The translations under genes were made by a program, and so were the position numbers. The notes beneath the pieces are model-generated. The model saw nothing but the letters and a program-made list of their open reading frames with translations, did no database searches and was not told the origin of the DNA. A stretch of DNA of 64,000 nucleotides from Anaerolineales bacterium (GTDB lineage: Bacteria; Chloroflexota; Anaerolineae; Anaerolineales; Villigracilaceae): NCBI GenBank assembly GCA_020847435.1, contig JADLBX010000044.1, positions 1 to 64,000 of the forward strand, given 5' to 3'. Positions 7,701 through 58,969 of this stretch are shown here, piece by piece. The number at the start of each line of letters is the position of its first letter. Positions within the stretch are counted from its first letter, which is position 1.

Positions 7701-10390
7701 GTACCCAAAATGAGGGCGGCGACGCCAAGAATCAATGCCACCGCCAGCGCGCCGGTCAGGTAGATAGCGCGTTTGCGCAAATTTTTTGCAGACGCTTCTT
7801 TTTCTTCGGCGCGTCGACGTTCTGTTTCCGCCAGCGTCTGCGCGTTTTCGAGTTCGCGCTGTTGACGGAGTTTTTCCTGCGACTCACGTTGATTTCGTTC
7901 AGCGATGCTCGCATTAAAAAATTCGCGTTCAAACTGCGTCAGCGATACGCTAGTCTGTTCCGCCCAGTTTTCAAATTGACCCAATCGCGCGCCGGTCAAT
8001 AAAAAACTGGGATCATGCTCCGCACTTTCCCATTCCTGCGCGGCGGCGGCGAGTTGTCTCTGGGATCGAATATCTGCGCGGCTTTCGACGAGCCACTCGC
8101 GCAAGCGCGCCCATTCGCGGATTAACGCTTCGTGCGCCACTTCGACGGTCGCGCCGCGTGTGATCGGATCGCGATCGAAGGTTAACAACCGCCCGCGTCC
8201 AAACGCCTCGATCACCGCCTCGAGCGGAATCTTCTCTGACTCAAGCCGGTCCAATTCCTCGCGCAAAACCCTGCGCCGAGTATCTTCTGTGCCTTCACCC
8301 AAGGTCACGAGGCGCAAAAATAACTGTCGCGCGGCGGATTGACCCGCTTCGTCGAGACTTGCGTAGATGGATTCTGCGCCGCGCCCCAACGCGCCAAGTA
8401 CGCCGCCGATCTCGCGGTACGCTTTGACGGTCAGCGTGCGTCCTTCGCGTTTATCGAATAGCTCCGAGAGCGCATATTGCAACAGCGGCAGCGCGCCGGG
8501 TTGGTTGCCGGTATCCTGAATGATCTTTGAGATAAGACCGGTTTCCAGCCGAAGCCCGGCATGTTGCGCGGGACCGGCGACTGCCCGTTCCACCTCGTCT
8601 GCGGTGAGAGGCAGGATGAACTCAAAGCGGCGATTGGTTAACTCACCGAAGTCCACATAGCGAAGCGGTTTGTCTATAAAATCGGCGCGCAAGGTGATGA
8701 TCACGCGTATGCGACTGCGTTCATCCAAGATCGCTGTGGCAATGTTATCCAACAGTAAAGTTCGTTCCGCTTCATCCTCGACCAGCGTGAAGACCTCTTC
8801 GAATTGGTCAATGATCAGCGCCAACTCGACCGAATCGTCGGCAGGCAGGATGCGATGAACGGCGCGTAGCAAGCCGCGATTTCCATCTTTTAACTGTGCG
8901 AGCAAACTTTCTGGCGGGTTGACTGCCACGCGTAACAAAGAAGCCTCAAGCTCTTCAAAGGGATGTTTGCCCGGCAACATGTCCACGATGAACCAGTTTT
9001 CCGATCCGGGCAGACCGCCGCGTCTCAGCGCGGGAATCAAACCGGCTCGCGCCACCGACGATTTGCCGCTTCCGCTGGGACCGATCACCGCCAGAAAACG
9101 GCTCAAGTCTCCGCCCTCGCCCAGACGCGCAAGCAGTTGTTGAATCAGCGCTTCGCGCCCAAAGAAATGATCGGCGTCTGCTTCATTGAAAGAGCGCAAC
9201 CCTTTGTAGGGATTCTCAATCTCAATATCGGCTGTCGAATCTTCAGGTTCGACCGGCGCAACGTGTGTGTCTGCCAATCTTCCCAGCGCCTGACGAAACT
9301 CGTTAAACAGCGCGAGCGCGTCGGCGTATCTTTTGTTTGGGTCTTTCGCGGTGGCTTTTGCAATGACCGTATCCAGCGCGGCAGGGAAACCAGACTTGCG
9401 CGCGGAAAGAGGCGGCAAGGGCGAATTGACGTGCTGTTGAATCAGATCGAACGGCGTGGGCCCATTAAAAGGAACGGCACCGGTCAACATCTCGTAAAGC
9501 ATTACGCCGAGGCAGTAAATATCGCTCTGCGGGCGGATCGAGGAAGATCGAATTTGTTCGGGCGACATGTATTGCGGCGAACCGATGATTACATCCACTC
9601 CGGTTTGGTTTTCTAAATCGGGGTTGCCCAAATTCTTGGCGATTCCAAAATCAGCCAGATACGTGTTCATGTCTTCATCGAGGAGAACGTTGGCAGGTTT
9701 CAGATCGCGGTGGATGATTCCGATTCGATGCGCGGAATGAAGCGCCGAGCAGATCTGCTCCAACATTTTGACGATCGAATCAACAGACAGTGGACCTTGT
9801 TCGAGCAAGCTCTGGATACTGCCGCCGCGCAAAAGCCGCATCACCAGATACGCCACGCCCGGCTCGCGCCAATAATCATACAAAGGGACGATGTGAGGAT
9901 GCTCCAACCGCGCTACCAATTGCGCTTCCGATTCGAAGCGGCGGATGAAATCGGGGTGATCGGCAAAAGTCGGCAGGATGATCTTCACCGCGACCTCGCG
10001 CTCGACGTTCGGCTGAACCGCCCGATAAACCGATCCCATTCCGCCCATGCCGATTCGTTCTGCCAGCGCGTAGCCTCGGATGGCGCGCCCGGTCAGATCT
10101 TCGCGACCAATTTCTTCCATCGCGGGAGGCGGCGTAATTGGAGGCAGATCGGACGCGGCTGGGCGGACGGAGCGCGCCCAGCGGACGAACCCGCTTCTTT
10201 CCCCTAGTGGAATTGCTAACGCCATCGCGAGCCGCTCTGCAATCTGAACCGAAGCCCGCAGATCATCCGCTTCGATCTTGCGCAGGGTGATCGCTGCGCA
10301 TCCTACGCGTCGCGCCAATTCCTCCTGCGTCAAATCCATCTCGCGTCGGCGCTGTCTCACGTACGCTCCAAAAGACACATTCTGTTCCAT
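4703..10390 (-). CDS. HTH - Ser/Thr kinase - STAND NTPase - TM - WD40 - BMP receptor-like fusion
   Basis: 1,895 residues from ATG 10390, which has GGAGG upstream; an in-frame TTG at 10408 is less likely. Domains in order: XRE-type helix-turn-helix (5-60); Hanks-type kinase (105-370) with G-loop GMGGMGSVYRA, Lys136, HRDLKPAN (227-234) and DFG (247-249); novel-STAND P-loop domain with GPSGSGKS (437-444) and Walker-B-like LIIDQFEE (525-532); a charged coiled-coil stretch; one membrane segment (874-898) preceded by basic residues, so N-terminus inside; about 13 WD40-like repeats (980-1560); and a C-terminal BMP/PnrA-like substrate-binding domain (1585-1895). Kinase catalytic residues are intact. 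BMP proteins usually bind purine nucleosides. The topology places WD40 and BMP outside and the kinase inside, suggesting a sensor that couples ligand to phosphorylation or transcription. Function is inferred. Confidence 0.9.
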   Translation of the reverse strand: MEQNVSFGAYVRQRRREMDLTQEELARRVGCAAITLRKIEADDLRASVQIAERLAMALAIPLGERSGFVRWARSVRPAASDLPPITPPPAMEEIGREDLTGRAIRGYALAERIGMGGMGSVYRAVQPNVEREVAVKIILPTFADHPDFIRRFESEAQLVARLEHPHIVPLYDYWREPGVAYLVMRLLRGGSIQSLLEQGPLSVDSIVKMLEQICSALHSAHRIGIIHRDLKPANVLLDEDMNTYLADFGIAKNLGNPDLENQTGVDVIIGSPQYMSPEQIRSSSIRPQSDIYCLGVMLYEMLTGAVPFNGPTPFDLIQQHVNSPLPPLSARKSGFPAALDTVIAKATAKDPNKRYADALALFNEFRQALGRLADTHVAPVEPEDSTADIEIENPYKGLRSFNEADADHFFGREALIQQLLARLGEGGDLSRFLAVIGPSGSGKSSVARAGLIPALRRGGLPGSENWFIVDMLPGKHPFEELEASLLRVAVNPPESLLAQLKDGNRGLLRAVHRILPADDSVELALIIDQFEEVFTLVEDEAERTLLLDNIATAILDERSRIRVIITLRADFIDKPLRYVDFGELTNRRFEFILPLTADEVERAVAGPAQHAGLRLETGLISKIIQDTGNQPGALPLLQYALSELFDKREGRTLTVKAYREIGGVLGALGRGAESIYASLDEAGQSAARQLFLRLVTLGEGTEDTRRRVLREELDRLESEKIPLEAVIEAFGRGRLLTFDRDPITRGATVEVAHEALIREWARLREWLVESRADIRSQRQLAAAAQEWESAEHDPSFLLTGARLGQFENWAEQTSVSLTQFEREFFNASIAERNQRESQEKLRQQRELENAQTLAETERRRAEEKEASAKNLRKRAIYLTGALAVALILGVAALILGTRAQASSRVATSRELAAASVLNLDADPERSVLLALEALKISRTTEAENALHRAVQASRIELVIQAAEPGYPWNLEVSPDGKYLLAGADGYSKLFDAETGQLVYQVPGYFSVFSPDGKTIAASYDDGIHFWDTATGEEKEVINRIWFNGITMEFSPDGKGILTSSWDGTPSLWDANTGQKMIEFVGHTAGAGFCYFSPDGSRVVSFSNDGTARVWDAKTGEQLLVLTEKGADATGSFSPDSKLLATTGGSDLKDIIVWDAQTGEKLKTIVGHTAGINHLEFSPDGKWIATGSSDRTAKIFDVETGRLLATLAGHAEPVIEVDFNPDGTKLATSSPDGTMRLWNIIRREVFSFYSHTYSGGQVDLSADGTLLATGAENGTVDVWETDSGKVIVSMPNPERLVFDLALSPNGEQLAIGFEDSSFRIWDVTNASILYDLPKHTGSVNALAYNSDGTQLVSGGEDFKAVLWDVTTSPPTPIYTQFFPAEVRAAAFSPDDKLIALGVHNGTVSLLDAATGDSFLTLRGHTASPSAIAFSANGSLIATASLDGTAKVWDVRTGSELLTLSGHSNQVMSIAFSPDGGRLATASRDGTARLWDASTGEELNVIVQGDTGFFDVAFHPNGKLLATGEDNGTYVYLLELDDLIELATTRLTRGLTVDECIKYLHKNPSECGAPVNAPTATPIPPTDAGRVCQVTGTSGLSGNSYEELVFLGLQKSNAEFGWDFKVLESPAITDYQKNVEEFLRGDCDLIVGSSVTADAFYAAAERNPDQRFLLIEYPFDPPLDNLRTQLYATDQAALLAGYLAASQTKTGKVAVFGGQDFPPVTDFMDGFALGVEYYNEKSGADVEILGWDPYKHEGVFVGDFCCDRQGMEFAQGFLDQGADVILPVAGYDVGVGTARAIKAHGNAYFIGVDFDWADGFPEYQDIVLTSIMKNYDPTVLLTVKSIIDDAFTGGIHFGGLGTGEVSLAPFYQFDSQIPPEIKADLEQIIADIISGKIKTKP

Positions 10391-10412
10391 GTCTTTGCCT
10401 CCGTTCAAGAGG

Positions 10413-10441
10413 AGTATAGCGTAGCCATCCGAGCGCTACAA
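10413..10441 (-). promoter_or_regulatory. Promoter of the receptor-kinase gene
   Basis: On the minus strand: -35 TTGTAG (10436-10441), 17-nt spacer, -10 TATACT (10413-10418). Transcription would start about 15 nt before the SD and 25 nt before ATG 10390. Confidence 0.6.
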
Positions 10442-10458
10442 GGAGAAAATACTCTTTC

Positions 10459-10513
10459 TATCGCTTTTTGTATCGGTCGTGAAATTTGCGCCAAAGTTAT
10501 ACAAAAAGCGATA
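10459..10513. promoter_or_regulatory. Perfect 15-bp inverted repeat between divergent promoters
   Basis: TATCGCTTTTTGTAT (10459-10473) and its exact reverse complement (10499-10513), 25 bp apart. The pair sits between the promoters of the receptor gene (minus) and the lipoprotein gene (plus). It is a candidate operator for the HTH domain of the receptor protein or for another regulator. Confidence 0.6.
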
Positions 10514-10529
10514 AGACAGCCAAAATCTC

Positions 10530-10558
10530 TTGAAATTGATTTTTCAAAATGCTACAGT
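10530..10558 (+). promoter_or_regulatory. Promoter of the lipoprotein gene
   Basis: -35 TTGAAA (10530-10535), 17-nt spacer, -10 TACAGT (10553-10558); SD AAGGAG lies at 10602-10607 before ATG 10615. Confidence 0.55.
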
Positions 10559-10614
10559 GCGGACATGACCGGCGCGCAGATTGCGTCAATTCAACCGGTC
10601 TCAAGGAGAACAAC

Positions 10615-11004
10615 ATGAAAATCGGAAAAGTGTATTTGTTGATGTTCGCGCTGGTAACAGCATCGTTGATCCTCTCAGCGTGCGCTAGCTCGACGCTGTC
10701 CAACTTCCCTACCGGAAGATTCGCGGATCCCGAAGACCCGCTTGTGGGATTCGATTTCCACGAGGATGGGACGTGGAACAATTTTTACTATGGCGCGCAC
10801 GAGGTCTGGGGCACATACAGCGTCAAAGGCGACTTGTTCATCGAGGAGACGAACAACTTCAACTGCGGCAAATCGCCCATGAGTTTCCGTTACACGTTCG
10901 ACGGCACGAACCTGCACTTCGAACTTACCGAGGAAAGCAAGAACGACGAATGTGAAGGCAGGCGGAACGCGTTCGATGGGACCACCTGGGTGATCGTGAA
11001 GTAG
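10615..11004 (+). CDS. Small secreted lipoprotein, unknown function
   Basis: 129 residues. A lipoprotein signal (MKIGKVYLLMFALVTASLIL) leads to lipobox LSAC at about residue 21. The mature part is a compact beta-rich domain (TWNNFYYGAHEVWGTYSV, FRYTFDGTNLHFEL) resembling small extracytoplasmic lipocalin-like or DUF domains; I do not recognise a named family. The start at 10615 is supported by AAGGAG and by the signal peptide beginning there. It is transcribed divergently from the receptor-kinase gene, with a shared inverted repeat between them, so co-regulation is likely. Confidence 0.72.
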   Translation: MKIGKVYLLMFALVTASLILSACASSTLSNFPTGRFADPEDPLVGFDFHEDGTWNNFYYGAHEVWGTYSVKGDLFIEETNNFNCGKSPMSFRYTFDGTNLHFELTEESKNDECEGRRNAFDGTTWVIVK

Positions 11005-11093
11005 CGTTGCCAACATCGAAGCAGACAATGCGATTCAAAACGTTTGAGGGATGATGGCTGATACACCGTCATCCCTCAAGGTGAGGAATAACC

Positions 11094-11810
11094 ATGAAAA
11101 AACAGAATTCTTCTCAGGAAAGTGGAAAGACCGAAGTGAGTGTGGCTAAGATCGGCTTGATCAGTACCGTCGCAGTGGCGATTATCACATGTATCGGCAC
11201 GGTAGTGGTTTCACTTGCCCCTTACCTCCCTTGGAATCGGGCAACAGCGACAGTGGAAGCGCCTCGCATTCCTATCGTATCGAACACTAACACATCTGAA
11301 GCGATATTTCTTCCGACGCTTCAAATCGCATCGACAGCGGTGCCGGTGACGAGCACATCCGCTCCGCCCTCATTTACCTCAATTCCCCTGACCTTAACGC
11401 AACCTCCGCCCACGGGAACGCTTGTACCACCCTCAGCGACTTCGAAGCCTGAAATCAGAGCATATCAATACACAGTTGTTAAAGTAGGAGGCGATTCGGG
11501 TACACAAATGTCACCGCAGTTGGAGTTTAGGACATCGCTCGAAACACTGGGAATCCTGCAGATGGAATTTACAATGAGCCCGAAAGGATGTTCCGAAGCG
11601 CGGTTACACATTCTGATCGATGGCGTCGAAAGATATACGTCAAACTTTCTTGGCAAATCTGAGTCTACAGGATTGTTGAACTTTAGCACTGTTTCAGCAG
11701 GTTCGCATCTACTGACATTGCAACCCGAGGGTCGGTTGGGCGGTTGTAATCGAGGATGGTTTGAATCTTGGGGTGGAACGCTAGTTGTTTATGTGAGTGA
11801 ATACCCGTAA
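11094..11810 (+). CDS. Membrane-anchored extracytoplasmic protein, unknown function
   Basis: 238 residues. A short polar N-terminus is followed by one membrane segment (about 15-40, IGLISTVAVAIITCIGTVVV), then a Thr/Pro/Ser-rich linker (about 50-120) and a C-terminal globular domain (about 125-238) with several aromatic residues and two Cys (in PKGCSEARL and GGCNRGW) that may form a disulfide. The layout is a surface-anchored ligand-binding or adhesion module. No family recognised. It lies 90 bp after the lipoprotein gene in the same direction and is closed by a strong hairpin. Confidence 0.65.
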   Translation: MKKQNSSQESGKTEVSVAKIGLISTVAVAIITCIGTVVVSLAPYLPWNRATATVEAPRIPIVSNTNTSEAIFLPTLQIASTAVPVTSTSAPPSFTSIPLTLTQPPPTGTLVPPSATSKPEIRAYQYTVVKVGGDSGTQMSPQLEFRTSLETLGILQMEFTMSPKGCSEARLHILIDGVERYTSNFLGKSESTGLLNFSTVSAGSHLLTLQPEGRLGGCNRGWFESWGGTLVVYVSEYP

Positions 11811-49527: not shown

Positions 49528-51015
49528 CTACTTCAGCGCCACGCCGCTTCTTGCGGGAATCGTAAACGTCAACTCGCCATTCACCGAAATATCGGACGCG
49601 CTCCCGAAGACCGCCCGCGGCGTCTTCTGCGCTTCATATGTGACGTGGACCTGTTGAGGCTCTTCGGACGCGTTCAACGCCACAACGAACGTTTTCCCTT
49701 CGAACGAGCGTGAGAACGCGTAGACCCCGTGCGCCGACCACAGGCGTTTCATGTCGCCGCGACGGAACGCGGGGTTTTTCTTCCTCAGCGCGATGAGCGC
49801 TTTGAAATAACTCAGCAAATCTTTATCCCATTTGTGCTCGTCCCACGGAAAGGATTTTCGGCAAAACGGATCGTGTTCGCCGTCGAGACCGATCTCGTCG
49901 CCGTAATAGATGCACGGCGCGCCGGTAATAGTCATGATGAAGAGCCACGCGAGTTTGAGCGAGTTCTGGTCGCCGCTCGCGAACGAAAGGAAGCGCGGCA
50001 TATCGTGACTATCGAGCAGGTTCAATTGCGAGCGCGTGATCTCGGGTTTGTACAAATTCATCATATGGTCCACGCGGTCGGCGAATTCGTGCGCGCCGAT
50101 GGGGTGATGGATGTTGCGAAAATTCGATTGCTGGTGTGCCACGCGCAAATCGAGGTGTTCGCCTGGGAAGAATGCGGCGCAGGCGTTCGTGCAGACGTAA
50201 TTCATCACCGCGTCGAACTGGTCGCCTTGGAGCCAGCGTTGCGACTCGTGCCAAATCTCGCCGACGATGTAGGCTTCGGGGTTAGCCTTCCGCACGCGCT
50301 GACGGAACTCCTGCCAGAACGAATCGTCGTCAATCTCGGCGGGGACGTCCAAGCGCCAGCCGTCTGCCCCGAACTTAATCCAATATTCAGCCACATCGAA
50401 GAGGAACTCGCGGACTGCCGGGGACTGCGTGTTGAATTTGGGCAGGGCGGGTAAATTCCACCAGGCGCGATAGCCGATTGCGGTGAGGCTGTCTTCGTGA
50501 TGCAGTTGTTTTTGTTCGTGCGGGCTGGGATACGCGCCCCAATGTTTTTTGCCGCTCAATCTTTCTTCGTCGAAGAAGAACCAATCCTTGTATGGCGAGC
50601 CCGCGCCGTTTTCGAGTACATGATGAAATTGCCAGAACCCCCGCGAGGCATGATTAAACACCCCGTCCAGAATGACGCGGATGTTTTTCTTGTGCGCCGC
50701 GTCGAGCAATGCCCGCAGCGCCTCGTTGCCGCCGAGCAGTGGGTCCACGTTGTAGTAGTCAAAGGTGTGATAACGATGGTTGGACGCGGAGGCGAAGATC
50801 GGGTTGAGATACAGCGCGTTGATCCCCAAGTCTTTGAGATAGTTGAGACGTTCCGTCACGCCGTATAAATCTCCGCCTTTGAATCCGTGTGGGGTGGGGG
50901 GCGCGTCCCAATCTTCGAAGGTCAGGTTGTCGTTTGGGTTGCGCGCGCTGCGTGCAAAACGGTCGGGGAAAATCTGGTAAAAAATTGCGTCCTGCGCCCA
51001 TTCGGGTGTGGTCAT
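49528..51015 (-). CDS. GH13 alpha-glucan hydrolase (neopullulanase/cyclomaltodextrinase-like)
   Basis: 495 residues. (beta/alpha)8 barrel with the four GH13 motifs: DGVFNH, GWRLDVPAE (nucleophile Asp), VGEIWH (acid/base Glu) and LLDSHD (stabiliser Asp). MTTPEWAQDAIFYQIFPDRF indicates no signal peptide and no N-terminal starch-binding domain, so it is cytosolic. Likely cleaves maltodextrins or cyclodextrins imported by the neighbouring transporter. Confidence 0.92.
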   Translation of the reverse strand: MTTPEWAQDAIFYQIFPDRFARSARNPNDNLTFEDWDAPPTPHGFKGGDLYGVTERLNYLKDLGINALYLNPIFASASNHRYHTFDYYNVDPLLGGNEALRALLDAAHKKNIRVILDGVFNHASRGFWQFHHVLENGAGSPYKDWFFFDEERLSGKKHWGAYPSPHEQKQLHHEDSLTAIGYRAWWNLPALPKFNTQSPAVREFLFDVAEYWIKFGADGWRLDVPAEIDDDSFWQEFRQRVRKANPEAYIVGEIWHESQRWLQGDQFDAVMNYVCTNACAAFFPGEHLDLRVAHQQSNFRNIHHPIGAHEFADRVDHMMNLYKPEITRSQLNLLDSHDMPRFLSFASGDQNSLKLAWLFIMTITGAPCIYYGDEIGLDGEHDPFCRKSFPWDEHKWDKDLLSYFKALIALRKKNPAFRRGDMKRLWSAHGVYAFSRSFEGKTFVVALNASEEPQQVHVTYEAQKTPRAVFGSASDISVNGELTFTIPARSGVALK

Positions 51016-51160: not shown

Positions 51161-52735
<1,575 letters not shown>

Positions 52736-52758
52736 GGTTGCAGGATTATCCTTTACGT

Positions 52759-52789
52759 CAACCGCCAAGAAATTGCTTCTTGGCGGTTG
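52759..52789. other. Intra-operon hairpin between malG-like and treS genes
   Basis: Perfect 13-bp arms (CAACCGCCAAGAA, 52759-52771; complement 52777-52789) with loop attgc. No T-run on the minus strand; probably tunes downstream expression or mRNA decay. Confidence 0.65.
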
Positions 52790-52816: not shown

Positions 52817-53995
52817 TCAGCCCTTAACCGATCCCGCCAGCAAACCGCGGACGAAGTATCGTTGTAACGAGAAGAACACGATCATGGGGAGCAACATGGA
52901 TAGAAATGCCGCCGCCGTAAGGACTTGCCAGCCTGATCCCAGCGATGTGACCATGTTGCTGATCTGGTAGGTCATGACCGGCGTCGTACCGCCGAGGAAA
53001 ACCAACGCAACGAGAAGATCGTTCCACACCCATAGGAATTGGAAAATCCCAAGCGAGGCGATCGCCGGCATGGCGAGTGGGACAACCAATTGGCGGAATA
53101 CGGTCCAGTGTGTCGCGCCGTCCAGGTAGGCTGATTCGAATAGGTCGCGCGGCAAAGTTCCGAGGAAGTTGCGCATCAGATAGATGGCGTACGGCATCCC
53201 GAAGCCGGTGTGGAAGAGCCATACGCCAAGGAAGGTGCCATTCAGACCGGTCTGCGCGTAAAACCGCGAGATCGGAACCAATGTCATTTGGAGGGGGACA
53301 ACTTGCAAGCCGACCAGTAAGGCAAAGAGCAGAAACCGTCCTTTGAAATCGAGCCAGGCAAATGCGTAACCGGCAAACGCGGCGAACAGAATCGGGATAA
53401 ATGTAGCGGGCAGAGTGACGAATAAACTGTTGATAAAAGCCCGCCCCATTCCCCGCGGGTTGAGGATATCGCTCAGGTTGCATTTGAGGTCGGGCGGTTG
53501 TGTCCCCGCCTCGCAATCGGCTGTGTAAGAACTGCGTCCGCGATAACCGACCAGCGCGTCAATGTAATTGTTCAAGGTGAAGCGCGAGTTAGCCTGGTCG
53601 TCGTCTCGTAAATACGATGCAATGTCTGCGGCTTCCTGCGCGGTGGGCAGGGGCATGTTGCCCATGTGCGGTTGTCCATTAATATCTTGACGAAGCAACG
53701 CCAACAACTGTAGAGAGCGGCTGTATTTGGCGATCAGTTCTGGGTTCGTTAGATCGGCTTGCGGAAGCGCTTTTCGGTCCGTCCCGTGACATTCCGCGCA
53801 GTAGGTTTCATATGGACCTGCGGTGCGCTGAGTCGTGAATGCCGTCCACCAGCCGGAACTTCCCACAGCCTCAGGAGGGCGCAGGGAGGTGACTAACAGC
53901 CCCAAGGTGGGAACGGCCCAAATGACCATCGTCAGGATGACGATCGCATGTGTCGGCAGCTTGTTTAGCTGTTTGTTGATTTGATCCCTGTTCAT
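52817..53995 (-). CDS. MalG-type sugar ABC permease with embedded cytochrome c domain
   Basis: 392 residues. TM1 (15-36) and the normal RPPEAVGSSGWW lead are followed by an inserted domain (about 57-133): heme motif CAECH (66-70), axial Met candidate in HMGNMP (111 or 114) and AADIASYLR, a class I cytochrome c fold. Then the standard loop (FTLNNYIDALVG), five further TM helices and the ATPase-contacting EAA motif (ESAYLDGATHWTVFRQLVVPLAMPAI, 287-312). A Cys pair (161, 172) lies in the same loop. ATG 53995 overlaps the partner permease stop. Reading frame and permease core are intact, so this is a genuine chimera rather than a frameshift. A redox-gated or redox-assisted uptake is speculative. 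Confidence 0.9.
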   Translation of the reverse strand: MNRDQINKQLNKLPTHAIVILTMVIWAVPTLGLLVTSLRPPEAVGSSGWWTAFTTQRTAGPYETYCAECHGTDRKALPQADLTNPELIAKYSRSLQLLALLRQDINGQPHMGNMPLPTAQEAADIASYLRDDDQANSRFTLNNYIDALVGYRGRSSYTADCEAGTQPPDLKCNLSDILNPRGMGRAFINSLFVTLPATFIPILFAAFAGYAFAWLDFKGRFLLFALLVGLQVVPLQMTLVPISRFYAQTGLNGTFLGVWLFHTGFGMPYAIYLMRNFLGTLPRDLFESAYLDGATHWTVFRQLVVPLAMPAIASLGIFQFLWVWNDLLVALVFLGGTTPVMTYQISNMVTSLGSGWQVLTAAAFLSMLLPMIVFFSLQRYFVRGLLAGSVKG

Positions 53996-55017
53996 CGCGA
54001 AGCCTCCTGTTCGAGAAATCGCTTTATGTTGAGATAGATGAAGGGGATGATCGCTACGACGAGAATTACCGCCACTGCCGTGCCGCGCCCGACGTTGAAA
54101 TTCTTGTACATCTCTGTGTACATGCGGTTGGCGATTACGTCGGTTTTGAAGTTCCCGCCGGTCATGACATAAACAAGATCGAAGAGTTTCAATACATTGA
54201 TCACCATCGTCGTAACCACGACCGTGATCGTTGGCAAAATGATGGGAACGATGATTTTCCAGAACACGGTCCATTCCGCCGCGCCGTCCACGCGCGCGGC
54301 TTCAATGATTTCATCTGGCACCGATTTTAAAGCCGCCGCAAGGATCGTCATGCAGAAGCCGGACCAAATCCAAATGCCTACGATGACGATCATGAACGTG
54401 TTGATTGGGATCGTAGAGAGCCAAGCCACTGGACGTCCGCCGAGCGAGGTAATGATCGAATTGAGCAAGCCAATCTGGGTTTGCGATGTGCCGTAATCGT
54501 ACACAAACTTCCAAATGACGCCGGCGCCCACAAAGGAGATGGCCATGGGCATGAATAAGACGGCTTTTGCCAGCGCCTCGTATTTCACGCGGTCTGCCAG
54601 GACGGCAAACGCGAGCCCAACGGTTACGGTTCCGAACACCATGACCACGATCCATTTGATCGTATTTCCATAGGAGGAACTCCAGAACGATTTCCATAAT
54701 GCGGCTGGCGAACTTGTATTGAATTCATCCGTCAGGGCGTAACGATAATTCTCAAAAACGCCCCAGCATGGCTGTCCGTCGCGGCAGGTTGTGGCGGCGG
54801 AGGCGGTCCCGTCGCTGTTCATGAAGCTTAAGCCTATGGTGTTGATCATCGGATAGACGATGAAAAACGTCATGACAGCCAGGGCCGGCAGGAGGTAAAG
54901 CCAGGGGACGAACGCTCCCTGTTTCATGATTTGAGGGACCGGTGGGTTGGGGGATGCTTGCTTTCGTTTTCGTTTGCCGGACATTCCAATGTTGGAGTTA
55001 GCCTGTGACGCAGCCAT
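53992..55017 (-). CDS. MalF-type sugar ABC permease
   Basis: 341 residues from ATG 55017 (GGAGG 6 nt upstream). A basic N-terminus (KRKRKQ) and six or more TM helices with the EAA motif EIIEAARVDGAAEWTVFWKIIVPIILPTI. Upstream in-frame codons lie in a hairpin between the genes, so they are not translated. It forms the permease heterodimer with the cytochrome-containing MalG-like protein. A periplasmic loop holds CRDGQPCWG, a Cys pair facing the same compartment as the cytochrome. Confidence 0.9.
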   Translation of the reverse strand: MAASQANSNIGMSGKRKRKQASPNPPVPQIMKQGAFVPWLYLLPALAVMTFFIVYPMINTIGLSFMNSDGTASAATTCRDGQPCWGVFENYRYALTDEFNTSSPAALWKSFWSSSYGNTIKWIVVMVFGTVTVGLAFAVLADRVKYEALAKAVLFMPMAISFVGAGVIWKFVYDYGTSQTQIGLLNSIITSLGGRPVAWLSTIPINTFMIVIVGIWIWSGFCMTILAAALKSVPDEIIEAARVDGAAEWTVFWKIIVPIILPTITVVVTTMVINVLKLFDLVYVMTGGNFKTDVIANRMYTEMYKNFNVGRGTAVAVILVVAIIPFIYLNIKRFLEQEASR

Positions 55018-55040
55018 CTCAGCCTCCGTTGAAAAGAATA

Positions 55041-55067
55041 GGGACGCCTCCTCCAAGGAGGCGTCCC
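55041..55067. other. Hairpin between binding protein and permease genes
   Basis: GGGACGCCTCCT (55041-55052), loop cca, complement (55056-55067). Located as is typical for the malE-malF space, where a stem-loop protects the abundant binding-protein mRNA from 3' decay. Confidence 0.7.
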
Positions 55068-55083
55068 CACTTTCATTCGCCAA

Positions 55084-56397
55084 CTACTTTTTCAATCCTT
55101 CCGCTTGCTTGGCGGCTAAACCTGCAAGAATCGAGTCCAAATCGCCGCCGTTCACAAATTCCGAGATTCCCTGGAACTCGGCAGAACCAAAGCCGCCGGG
55201 GATCGTGTCGCCGATGTCGGTGGTGAAACCGGAGGTTGAGGCGATTGCGTCGCCAAGTTTTTGTAGCGCGGCATCGGTGTAATTCCCTGCGGCGCCTTTA
55301 TTTGGAGAGAGACCGAAGGTCGCGGCAGCCCAGTTGGCGCCCCCCTGAGCGGAGGAAAGATACTTGACGAGCGCGCGGACCGCGGGCGTATCCGCAAAAG
55401 CCATCATCGGTTCGACGGAGCCTTGCAAGCCTTGGATGCTGGGCACCACAAAGAAATCATAGTCGGCGCCTTGCTTCAGATTGGAGAATTGCTTGGCAAT
55501 TTCACCGCCTGCAAAGCCGGATTGCTTGACCAGCATGGCTTCCGGGGGATCCGCGAACGGCTTGTAAATGGCTTCGAGGAACGGGGTGGACAGCGTGCCT
55601 TGCGCGCCGCCAACCGTATATTTGTCGCTCATTGCCCATTTGCCGTACGTTTCGTAGGCTTGCTTGACGCCTGGATCAGCGTAGGAAACGCTGCCATCCA
55701 GAATCCCGTTGACGAAACCGGGACCTTGCTGGACTAACATGATGTCCTGAACAAAGTCGGTACCCGTCCAGCCGGTTGCGTCGCCCGATTCAAAGCCCAT
55801 GCTCCAGGGAACGTTTCCATCTGCCGCCATTTTCTCTACGAGTGCGTCGAGTTCATCCCAAGTTGTGGGAACTTTGTAGCCCAGGGTCTCGAAGTTGGAC
55901 GGGCTGTACCAGATGATGGACTTAACGTCTGCTTTGATTGGAAGTCCCAGCCATTTTCCGTCAATTGTTACCGGGGCGAGGAAGAAATCGCTGTAACTTG
56001 ACGAATCGGCGCCGAGGGCATCCATCGCTTGCAACTTATCTTTGTACTGTACTAATTGAGCCACTTGCCAAAAGGCGACGTCGGGCGGGGTGCCGGCTTG
56101 GACGCGTGTATCGAGCAGAGCCTGGTCGCGGGTTGACTCCGGTTTGAGAACGATTCCGCAGGCATCCAGCAGGGGTTTCAGAACCTGATTGAGAGCCGCC
56201 TCTTCAACACCGGACCATTGATAGAGCATACTGATCTCATCGCCGGATTTTGCCCCCGCGCAGTCAATCTCACTCCCGCCGGTTGAAGGCGCCTGCGTTG
56301 CCGGCGCTTCGGTCGCGGTCGGTCCACAAGCAGTGAGCAGCAATGCCACTAGAGCAACAATGCTGGTCATGGACCAAAAAATTGATTTGTTTTTCAT
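55084..56397 (-). CDS. Sugar ABC transporter substrate-binding lipoprotein
   Basis: 437 residues from ATG 56397 (aagaggag upstream). Signal and lipobox LLTACGPT at about residue 24, Pro/Thr-rich spacer, then a type I/B (MalE/cluster B-like) binding protein: DEISMLYQWSGVEEAALNQVLKPLL, DVAFWQVAQLVQYKDKLQAM, WYSPSNFETLGYKVPTTWDEL. Binds an oligosaccharide, probably a maltodextrin or trehalose given the neighbours. Confidence 0.9.
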   Translation of the reverse strand: MKNKSIFWSMTSIVALVALLLTACGPTATEAPATQAPSTGGSEIDCAGAKSGDEISMLYQWSGVEEAALNQVLKPLLDACGIVLKPESTRDQALLDTRVQAGTPPDVAFWQVAQLVQYKDKLQAMDALGADSSSYSDFFLAPVTIDGKWLGLPIKADVKSIIWYSPSNFETLGYKVPTTWDELDALVEKMAADGNVPWSMGFESGDATGWTGTDFVQDIMLVQQGPGFVNGILDGSVSYADPGVKQAYETYGKWAMSDKYTVGGAQGTLSTPFLEAIYKPFADPPEAMLVKQSGFAGGEIAKQFSNLKQGADYDFFVVPSIQGLQGSVEPMMAFADTPAVRALVKYLSSAQGGANWAAATFGLSPNKGAAGNYTDAALQKLGDAIASTSGFTTDIGDTIPGGFGSAEFQGISEFVNGGDLDSILAGLAAKQAEGLKK

Positions 56398-56509
56398 TCT
56401 TACTCCTCTTGTAATGCTGACTTTATTTGGTCTTGTCGAACGACTAACTTCGAACAAATGTGAGGAAGCGTCACCTCCTTCCAGTGCAGATTCCATAATT
56501 TGAAAAGCG

Positions 56510-57541
56510 TCATAGCGGCTTGCACGATTTGCGGATAATAAGTTCGGTATCGAGAACCATTTGATGCGATTGCCCCGCGTTGCCGTCCTGGATTAAATCC
56601 AGCAATAATTCACAGGCGCTTTGCGCCAATAATTCTGCGGGGAGTTTGATCGTGGTCAGCGGCGGATCGGAATACTGAGCCCATGGGATATCGTCAAACC
56701 CGACCAGCGAAATATCGTCCGGGACGCGCAGGTTTGCCTCCCGCAAGGCGGCTTTCGCTCCGATTGCCACGTTGTCGCTCGCGACAAAAACGGCTGTAAA
56801 CGACTCGCCGCTTTGTAGCAAAGATTGCATACAGTCATATCCGCTTTTGGGGTCGAAGTCCGCATAGCGGATCAGGTTTTCGTTTATGGGGATGCCTGCC
56901 TTCGTTAACGCATTCTGATACCCGCCCACGCGTTCCGGCGTTGCCGTATATTCGCGCGGAGCGCTGGAAATGCAGGCAATTGCTCTGTGTCCCAATTCCA
57001 ACATGTAGGCAGTTGCCTTTTCCGCCGCTTTCAAATTATCCACGTCAATGAAAGGTAAATTTAGCCCATCTATTTTTCCCATCAACACAGTTGGAACGTC
57101 CACTTTCTCGAGCGCCTTGAGCGCTCTATCGTCCAGACGGGGAGTGGAGAGGATCATGCCGTCAATCCTTTTCGCGCGGGCAAGTTCGAAATAAGCCGAA
57201 TCCGGGTGTTCCGTTTCCATCCAATCAACCAAAATCCTCACGTTTTGTTTTTTTGCCGAGGTGAGCAAGCCACTGATAATTCTTGGAAGAAAAGCATCGG
57301 TGGCAATGTGATGTTGGGTACGGGTCAAAACGAGTCCGATCAGTTTTGTGCGGCGGCGAGCTAGCGCCTGAGCGGTCGCGTCCGGCACATACCCCAGTTC
57401 GTTTGCGGCATCAAGCACTTTTTGGCGGGTTTCGGGACTGATTTGAATACTTCGCACGTTGTTTAGAACGAGCGACACTGTAGTGCGCGAGACGCCAGCC
57501 ATCTGCGCAACTTCCTTGCTTGTAGCTCGTTTACGTTGCAA
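56510..57541 (-). CDS. LacI-family transcriptional repressor
   Basis: 343 residues. LacI HTH at 5-25 (TSKEVAQMAGVSRTTVSLVLN), hinge helix (ALARRRTKLIGLV), periplasmic-binding-protein core with DGMILSTPRLDD, AVFVASDNVAIGAKAALREANLRVPDDISLVGFDDIPWAQY. It controls its own promoter through two tandem operators and presumably the downstream transporter/GH13 genes. The ligand is probably a sugar or sugar phosphate. Confidence 0.92.
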   Translation of the reverse strand: MQRKRATSKEVAQMAGVSRTTVSLVLNNVRSIQISPETRQKVLDAANELGYVPDATAQALARRRTKLIGLVLTRTQHHIATDAFLPRIISGLLTSAKKQNVRILVDWMETEHPDSAYFELARAKRIDGMILSTPRLDDRALKALEKVDVPTVLMGKIDGLNLPFIDVDNLKAAEKATAYMLELGHRAIACISSAPREYTATPERVGGYQNALTKAGIPINENLIRYADFDPKSGYDCMQSLLQSGESFTAVFVASDNVAIGAKAALREANLRVPDDISLVGFDDIPWAQYSDPPLTTIKLPAELLAQSACELLLDLIQDGNAGQSHQMVLDTELIIRKSCKPL

Positions 57542-57742: not shown

Positions 57743-58843
57743 TTACCGGATCGCCTGCTCGGTTGTCGCGTCGAAAAGGTGGAGATTTTCCATATCGAAA
57801 GCGACCGCCGCCTGCTGGCCGACGCGCAATTGCGAGCGCGGGTCTACGCGGGCGACGAAGGTGTTGTTCCCGCTCATCAGATACAGGAAGATCTCGTTGC
57901 CCATCAACTCGGTCACATCCACTTTTGCCATGACCTTCTCCGTCGCAATATTCATTGGAACGAACTCCGCATCGTGGACGTTCTCAGGGCGGATGCCGAA
58001 GATCACATCCTTGCCCGCGTGCGGTTCGTAGGATGTAGACTTCGCGGCGGGAAGCGCAATGGAAAAATCGCCCGCGTCGAACAAAAGTTTTGCGCCATCT
58101 TTCCGCAACTTGCCGCGGAAGAAATTCATGGCGGGCGAGCCGATGAAACCTGCCACAAACAAATTGTTGGGGTGATCGTACAAATTCTGCGGCGTATCCA
58201 ATTGTTGAAGGACGCCTTTATTAATCACTGCGATGCGCGTCGCCATCGTCATCGCTTCGGTCTGGTCGTGTGTCACATAAATGAATGTGGTCTGCAACCG
58301 CTGGTGCAGTTTGCTGATCTCGGCGCGCATTTGCACGCGCAGTTTCGCGTCGAGGTTCGAGAGCGGCTCGTCGAACAGAAAGACTTTCGGCTCGCGCACG
58401 ATGGCGCGCCCGACCGCCACGCGCTGGCGTTGTCCGCCCGAAAGTTGACGCGGCTTACGGTCGAGCAGCTCCTGAATGCCGAGGATATCCGCCGCTTCGT
58501 TCACGCGGCGCTTGATCTCCTCCTTCGGCGTCTTACGGAGTTTCAAACCGAACGCCATATTGTCGTACACCGAAAGATGCGGATACAACGCGTACGACTG
58601 AAAGACCATGGCGATATCGCGGTCTTTCGGCGCCACGTCGTTCACCACGCGGTCGCCGATGCGGATCTCGCCGCTCGAGATTTCCTCCAAGCCAGCCAGC
58701 GAGCGCAAGGCGGTCGTCTTACCGCACCCCGACGGACCGACCAGCACGAGAAATTCCTTGTCTTCAATTTGGATATTCAAATCGTTCACCGCAATCACCT
58801 CCCCAAACTTCTTGAACACGTGATCGAACGTAACGCTTGCCAT
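57743..58843 (-). CDS. Sugar ABC transporter ATPase (MsmX/UgpC-like)
   Basis: 366 residues from ATG 58843 (cggagg upstream). Walker A GPSGCGKTTAL (about 37-47), signature LSGGQRQRVAVGRA, Walker B VFLFDEPLSNLDAKLR, switch His in VTHDQ; C-terminal regulatory OB/TOBE domain (FGIRPENVHDAE). Ends with a GAD..AAV..FDMENLHLFD segment typical of the family. It can energise several sugar importers, including the MalEFG-like one downstream, which lacks its own ATPase. Confidence 0.94.
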   Translation of the reverse strand: MASVTFDHVFKKFGEVIAVNDLNIQIEDKEFLVLVGPSGCGKTTALRSLAGLEEISSGEIRIGDRVVNDVAPKDRDIAMVFQSYALYPHLSVYDNMAFGLKLRKTPKEEIKRRVNEAADILGIQELLDRKPRQLSGGQRQRVAVGRAIVREPKVFLFDEPLSNLDAKLRVQMRAEISKLHQRLQTTFIYVTHDQTEAMTMATRIAVINKGVLQQLDTPQNLYDHPNNLFVAGFIGSPAMNFFRGKLRKDGAKLLFDAGDFSIALPAAKSTSYEPHAGKDVIFGIRPENVHDAEFVPMNIATEKVMAKVDVTELMGNEIFLYLMSGNNTFVARVDPRSQLRVGQQAAVAFDMENLHLFDATTEQAIR

Positions 58844-58969
58844 GAGTCTTTCCTCCGTTTCGTGGGAATATGGTGACTGCATTGTACACCCATATTCTTT
58901 TTATGGGGATGAAAAACCCGCGTCGCCGCGACCCTCAACCTGCCTCGGCGCGGACGCGTGCGCGGCGCC

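Follow-up and report, generated by a model that had tools for sequence, protein, structure and literature searches.

We find that a MalG-type permease of a bacterial sugar importer carries a cytochrome c domain inserted into its first extracytoplasmic loop, and we are highly confident that this is a conserved, heme-binding domain of an importer permease. The gene lies in the window, which is the whole stretch of 64,000 nucleotides of DNA analysed here, and the genome holding it is 3.05 Mb in size and 88.6% complete, with Anaerolineales MAGs as the nearest named relatives. Our best guess for the domain's function, which we rate at a little under an even chance, is that its heme gives redox control of sugar import.

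From its sequence, the permease is a subunit of an alpha-glucoside-type ABC importer (Table 1). In a Pfam search of the whole protein, BPD_transp_1 matches residues 205–384 (8.5e-16, 58.7 bits, cut-off 26.4), and conserved positions in residues 287–310, which we take to be the EAA loop, are invariant; the original prediction of a MalG-type permease with intact transport motifs is therefore confirmed. The gene's stop codon occupies 52817–52819 on the minus strand, its ATG overlaps the partner MalF-type gene by 4 bases, and the LacI regulator and MalK-type ATPase genes lie upstream on the same strand. It resembles the CUT1/MalG-type permeases (MalG, SugB and AglG-like proteins) in having the BPD_transp_1 domain, the EAA loop, a MalF-type partner, a binding protein, a MalK-type ATPase and GH13 enzymes nearby. 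The closest solved structures are SugB (trehalose) and MalG (maltose), which align only from residue 178 to 203 onwards; unlike them, the window permease has a cytochrome region, with no counterpart in those matches.

Table 1. Features of the permease, its inserted domain and the surrounding gene cluster, in window coordinates
Feature	Position	Strand	Evidence
MalG-type ABC permease carrying the cytochrome c insertion	52820..53995	-	392 aa; translation, Pfam, 35-sequence alignment
Cytochrome c domain, residues 56–134	53594..53830	-	PF13442/PF00034 matches; AF2 model
Heme-attachment motif CAECH, residues 66–70	53786..53800	-	CxxCH in all 90 long-loop sequences (2 repeats included)
His110, putative distal ligand of the heme	53666..53668	-	73/74 + 15/15 later sequences
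Cys161, probable disulfide partner of Cys172	53513..53515	-	74/74, 14/14 untruncated further sequences
Cys172	53480..53482	-	Same evidence as Cys161
EAA cytoplasmic coupling loop (presumed), residues 287–310	53066..53137	-	E287, D292–A294, P306, P310 invariant in 35 aligned sequences
Partner MalF-type permease, extracytoplasmic Cys pair CRDGQPC	53992..55083	-	BPD_transp_1 2.7e-18
Extracellular sugar-binding protein SBP_bac_8	55084..56496	-	SBP_bac_8 match
LacI-family regulator	56510..57541	-	Domain match
MalK/MsmK-type ATPase	57743..58882	-	Domain match
GH13 glycoside hydrolase	51161..52768	-	PF00128 7.7e-108
Second GH13 glycoside hydrolase	49528..51015	-	PF00128 2.9e-73

The operon in the window probably serves sugar import and hydrolysis, its substrate being read from the GH13, LacI and binding-protein neighbours. 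Across 15 relatives' loci (L008–L022, some of which end at contig ends), the binding protein and MalF are present in 14 and the first GH13 gene in 12. The ATPase gene adjoins the cluster in the window; it was not seen near the permease in most of these 15 loci. One of them, L008, has an extra 587-residue, glycoside hydrolase-like ORF (9572–11335) between the permease and the GH13 gene, which the window does not have, and gaps of a similar size occur in L009, L010, L011, L012 and L014.

Cytochrome c profiles recognize the inserted region. On the full permease, PF13442 matches residues 61–129 (4.4e-5) at 24.2 bits, under its 27-bit cut-off, and PF00034 scores 19.4 bits against a cut-off of 21.3; when the 84-residue piece is excised and searched, a check that had been proposed together with the original prediction, the scores rise to 28.4 bits for PF13442 and 24.3 bits for PF00034, both over cut-off. 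Among 74 homologous domains, 73 match PF13442 and 57 match PF00034 at E<=0.01. An AF2 model of the domain alone (residues 46–138, 74 aligned sequences) has a mean pLDDT of 84 and places helices where a cytochrome c has them. A Foldseek search of this model against the PDB returned almost exclusively c-type cytochromes, mainly of the c6 type, among the 50 matches displayed; these matches are weak, with none of 67 at E<=0.001, a best E of 0.17 and a TM of about 0.5. The full-length AlphaFold2 model of the permease is poor (pLDDT 56), too low to place the domain on the transporter. In that low-confidence model, the succession of helices leading up to the EAA loop puts loop 1 outside the cytoplasm, in keeping with the extracytoplasmic location that we assume from MalG topology. 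The predicted CxxCH cytochrome c domain is thus borne out in the first extracytoplasmic loop, with CAECH at residues 66–70 and domain limits of about 56–134.

The heme-attachment motif follows the length of the loop. All 90 long-loop sequences (two of them repeats) contain CxxCH and none of 14 short-loop sequences does; no long loop lacking CxxCH was found among all fetched group members picked by loop length. How the sequences were chosen matters here. The set of 74 was picked by its CxxCH pattern, so the invariance of C, C and H within it (74/74) holds by construction; the set of 90 was picked by loop length, and His110 was never a criterion. A further 15 distinct sequences from class and order genomes, gathered later and not by motif pattern, also have CxxCH in every case. 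The domain's dN/dS has a median of 0.155 and a maximum of 0.325 (36 usable of 55 close pairs, with many dS values near saturation), and the domain is therefore under purifying selection; the median for the permease core is 0.028, a rate roughly one-fifth of the domain's. A degenerate, vestigial cytochrome, or a mere profile artefact, could account for the sub-threshold PF13442 score of the full protein and for the weak Foldseek matches, but not for a CxxCH motif in every long loop, a dN/dS of at most 0.325 and a domain model at pLDDT 84, and we give a non-functional domain almost no credence. It is very likely, judging by these motifs and profiles, that the domain carries heme.

In its CxxCH motif, profile match and predicted helical fold, the domain is like class I and CBB3-type cytochrome c domains, such as those of CcoP and cytochrome c6. 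It differs from both by sitting in a transporter loop and by having His110 where Met is usual. CcoP is a diheme subunit of the cbb3 oxidase complex; in contrast, the window protein has a single CxxCH, in a permease, within a sugar gene cluster.

The identity of the distal heme ligand departs from the original prediction, which had described a Met-ligand-bearing domain. His110 is kept in 73/74 fused proteins and in 15/15 of the sequences gathered after prediction (88/89 overall). Residue 111 is Met in 37/74 and in 5/15 of the later sequences (42/89 overall), and residue 114 is Met in only 2/74. Because Met111 is not conserved while His110 is, a bis-His heme is likelier. We reject both Met111 and Met114 as the ligand across the family; the window protein, which has His110, Met111 and Met114, may itself differ. 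A conserved distal Met, as in the His/Met class I type, is not found in the fused family. Had homologues lacked both CAECH and the Met, the prediction would have lost its ground; the long-loop homologues keep CxxCH throughout, and it is the Met that they do not keep. In HMMER alignments, the ‘GQMP’ of CcoP falls on ‘GQPH’, with the CcoP Met one residue before His110. In five of the eight remaining PF13442 domains in the window genome (a count made by eye), a Met lies 16–19 residues before the aromatic residue of the last helix; the corresponding distances in the window domain are 18 for His110, 17 for Met111 and 14 for Met114. Judged by conservation, the distal ligand is more probably His110; spacing alone would also allow Met111. 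The sole fused protein without His110 (L181) has Met-Pro a few residues on, and is perhaps a natural His-to-Met ligand switch.

The conserved histidine also bears on the kind of signal that the heme could receive. The domain could be a ligand sensor, in which the heme detects NO, CO or peroxide, rather than electrons, and controls import in response. Such a sensor would have the same position and conservation, and would fit the persistence of the domain in genomes without a COX1 match, described below. However, the conserved distal His predicts a six-coordinate heme, and a six-coordinate heme with His in the distal position binds gases poorly. We regard sensing of such ligands as quite improbable.

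Two further cysteine pairs had been read as redox hardware on the same side of the membrane, a reading that comparison with cytochrome-less relatives does not support. C161 and C172 are kept in 14/14 cytochrome-less permeases, and the MalF pair is kept in 73/73 domain-bearing and 14/14 domain-less loci with an aligned MalF. Because both pairs are kept in domain-less relatives, they are not linked to the cytochrome and ordinary disulfides are the simpler explanation; we reject redox switches tied specifically to the heme. The pairs are best read, from this pattern of conservation, as disulfides of the whole transporter group.

The fusion is an architecture conserved within Anaerolineae, a class of the Chloroflexota, as the survey of Chloroflexota suggested with the original prediction makes plain. 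In the window's family, 98/152 genomes have a match at 1e-30, and no more than 29 of these have a full-length match to the fusion. Searched with a loop profile (A1), wider samples, which overlap one another, contain the full domain in 68/400 genomes of the order (a single additional copy is truncated at the end of its contig, and 15 relatives are without the domain), in 26/396 genomes of the class (with two domain-less relatives; 16 of the 26 lie outside the window's order) and in 10/400 genomes of the phylum (with one domain-less relative). A GTDB-wide scan found 13 loci with CxxCH in the matching protein among the best 80 of 590 relatives; all 13 are from Anaerolineales, Anaerolineaceae or Chloroflexi, and no fusion outside these groups was seen among the same 80. 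The fusion is not an assembly accident, because it recurs in many independent assemblies, including one-contig genomes (G011, G136, G142, G670), and a chimera is thereby ruled out. One contig (G759, C64) has two equal-scoring fusion copies in opposite orientation (2092–2559 and 144932–145399), possibly an assembly repeat.

We calculated a maximum-likelihood tree from the permease part alone, with the domain omitted (269 columns, 100 sequences including 12 outgroup sequences, rooted on L030). On this tree, all 74 domain-bearing proteins group together with 14 domain-less ones, and parsimony requires four changes, which we interpret as a single gain of the domain and about three losses. The ultrafast bootstrap values that join the loss groups to their neighbours are 89, 93 and 70, and that of the whole group is 63, so the number of losses is only moderately supported. 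In the domain-less forms, the GWW segment runs straight into the next part of the loop and the remaining permease is kept; because these relatives keep the rest, the transporter does not need the domain.

The same loop takes up other sequences. Six AglG-type permeases (L023, L024, L028, L031, L040 and L116) have another kind of insert there, about 85 residues long; the loop therefore accepts domains and looks like an insertion hot spot. The cytochrome domain might then be structural, its heme only stabilizing a fold that helps the binding protein dock, as other loop inserts may do. The AglG-type insert is in favour of a docking role, as is the clean absence of the domain from relatives without it; however, such a role leaves unexplained why a distal ligand is kept in 88/89 sequences and why, in family f2, the domain is linked with cytochrome genes. 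We consider it improbable.

We next describe that link. The window genome has two PF01578 matches (maturation proteins), which answers the question, raised with the original prediction, of whether a cytochrome maturation system is present. It also has nine PF13442 matches, one of them this permease, and a weak COX1 match (2.7e-5, in a genome that is 88.6% complete); the fused relatives G055 and G056 have no COX1 match. Elsewhere in this genome (L199, contig C2), a monoheme cytochrome c of 131 residues has as its neighbour an ORF of 496 residues that contains two CxxCH motifs and looks similar to a diheme peroxidase. Within the window's family, PF01578 occurs in 150/152 genomes, and the two without it (G082, G116) carry no fusion; because nearly all genomes have PF01578, fused or not, the fusion and PF01578 are unlinked in this family.

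For a comparison in neighbouring families, we used 44 genomes: 15 domain-less and 20 domain-bearing genomes of f2, and nine domain-bearing genomes of f96, the domain-bearing ones being 29 of the 69 in the order sample. PF01578 is present in 8/15 domain-less versus 26/29 domain-bearing genomes (Fisher one-sided p 0.011) and COX1 in 2/15 versus 18/29 (p 0.0022); with f2 alone, the values are 0.019 for PF01578 and 0.049 for COX1. Because the genomes are related, these p-values overstate their independence. The three domain-bearing genomes without PF01578 are 72–85% complete. None of the 15 domain-less f2 genomes has a PF13442 cytochrome; all 20 domain-bearing ones have a PF13442 match. A single genus, g311, contains two domain-less genomes without PF01578 and three domain-bearing genomes with it. 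In f2, the distribution of the domain is shown to be tied to cytochrome genes. A general rule that the domain occurs where there is respiration is only partly true, with PF01578 in 8/15 domain-less genomes and COX1 missing from 11/29 domain-bearing ones.

In eight of the 20 domain-bearing f2 genomes (G722, G728, G737, G745, G751, G754, G780 and G789), the permease is itself the sole PF13442 match. None of the eight has a COX1 match, PF01578 is present in six and NrfA is found in G751 only. The domain therefore persists without a COX1-type oxidase or another PF13442 cytochrome, and this persistence counts against a plain respiratory shuttle. In G754, which has no COX1, NrfA or other PF13442 match, translated ORFs reveal an apparent Ccm maturation operon (L222, 5535–12090). 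We make no claim that this permease is the sole reason for retaining maturation; the search for other c-type cytochromes there covered PF13442 and NrfA, and in G722 the maturation gene adjoins one for a protein with five CxxCH motifs.

These genomes bear on the main rival to redox control, in which the importer simply tethers a cytochrome c to the outside of the membrane. The cytochrome would there carry electrons from one redox protein to another and leave transport unregulated. Respiratory cytochrome c domains, that of CcoP in cbb3 oxidase among them, are the top profile relatives found in the PDB, the domain-less f2 genomes are without PF13442 cytochromes and mostly without COX1, and the domain's rate of evolution exceeds that of the permease, as would be expected of loose coupling. 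All three observations fit a tethered electron carrier. However, in the eight f2 genomes where the permease is the sole PF13442 match, the obvious partners were not found (COX1 in none, NrfA missing from seven). A sugar importer is also an odd anchor, and His in place of Met ligation would give a lower potential than that of the usual respiratory cytochromes c. We therefore judge a tethered carrier to be unlikely, while treating it as a serious contender.

Redox control of import, the reading that we prefer, would operate as follows. In the first extracytoplasmic loop, the domain would sit near the dock of the binding protein, and the cytochrome c maturation machinery of the cell would attach its heme covalently. 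His70 and His110 would hold the iron, and the potential is probably low because of this bis-His ligation. The next two steps are the least certain: the heme may act as a redox sensor that swaps electrons with donors in the periplasm or the membrane, and the loop may change with the oxidation state of the heme, adjusting sugar import to the electron acceptor available. The conservation of CxxCH and His110, purifying selection, the maturation proteins, the link in f2 and the sugar operon all favour redox control. Against it, the f2 link is incomplete and is absent in the window's family, where a minority of the genomes with a match at 1e-30 have the fusion; the COX1 match of the window genome is weak, and G055 and G056 have none; and the domain evolves some fivefold faster than the core. 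The specific version, in which a covalently attached bis-His heme opens or brakes import according to its redox state, and the supply of electron acceptor acts on uptake directly, in addition to gene regulation and cytoplasmic signals, is a tentative proposal that we would call possible rather than probable.

The known means of controlling ABC importers are cytoplasmic domains, inducer exclusion and the supply of binding protein. One of the closest known parallels to what we propose is CydDC, an ABC transporter that responds to heme, its ATPase being modulated by hemes (PMC4132815), and which is elsewhere called a heme transporter. CydDC serves the assembly of the respiratory machinery and is not a case of a covalently bound cytochrome domain in an importer. 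We found no description of a cytochrome c fused to a sugar ABC permease in the open-licence PubMed Central literature, as far as our search of it reached. Both halves of the protein are ordinary; it is their union in one polypeptide, kept across a class, that we did not find described there. A plausible setting exists for such control. Wastewater Chloroflexota are reported to take up substrates aerobically, and sugars anaerobically (PMC10746286), and we propose that this is a setting where redox control would pay; the word ‘cytochrome’ is absent from that study's main text.

Natural relatives that lack just this domain are ready-made controls for an effect of heme redox state on import, and one pair of proteins is enough for a test. 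The domain suggests, without proof, that sugar import is wired to electron flow, and an outward-facing domain with heme on the importer would connect respiration physically and directly with nutrient uptake in Chloroflexota.
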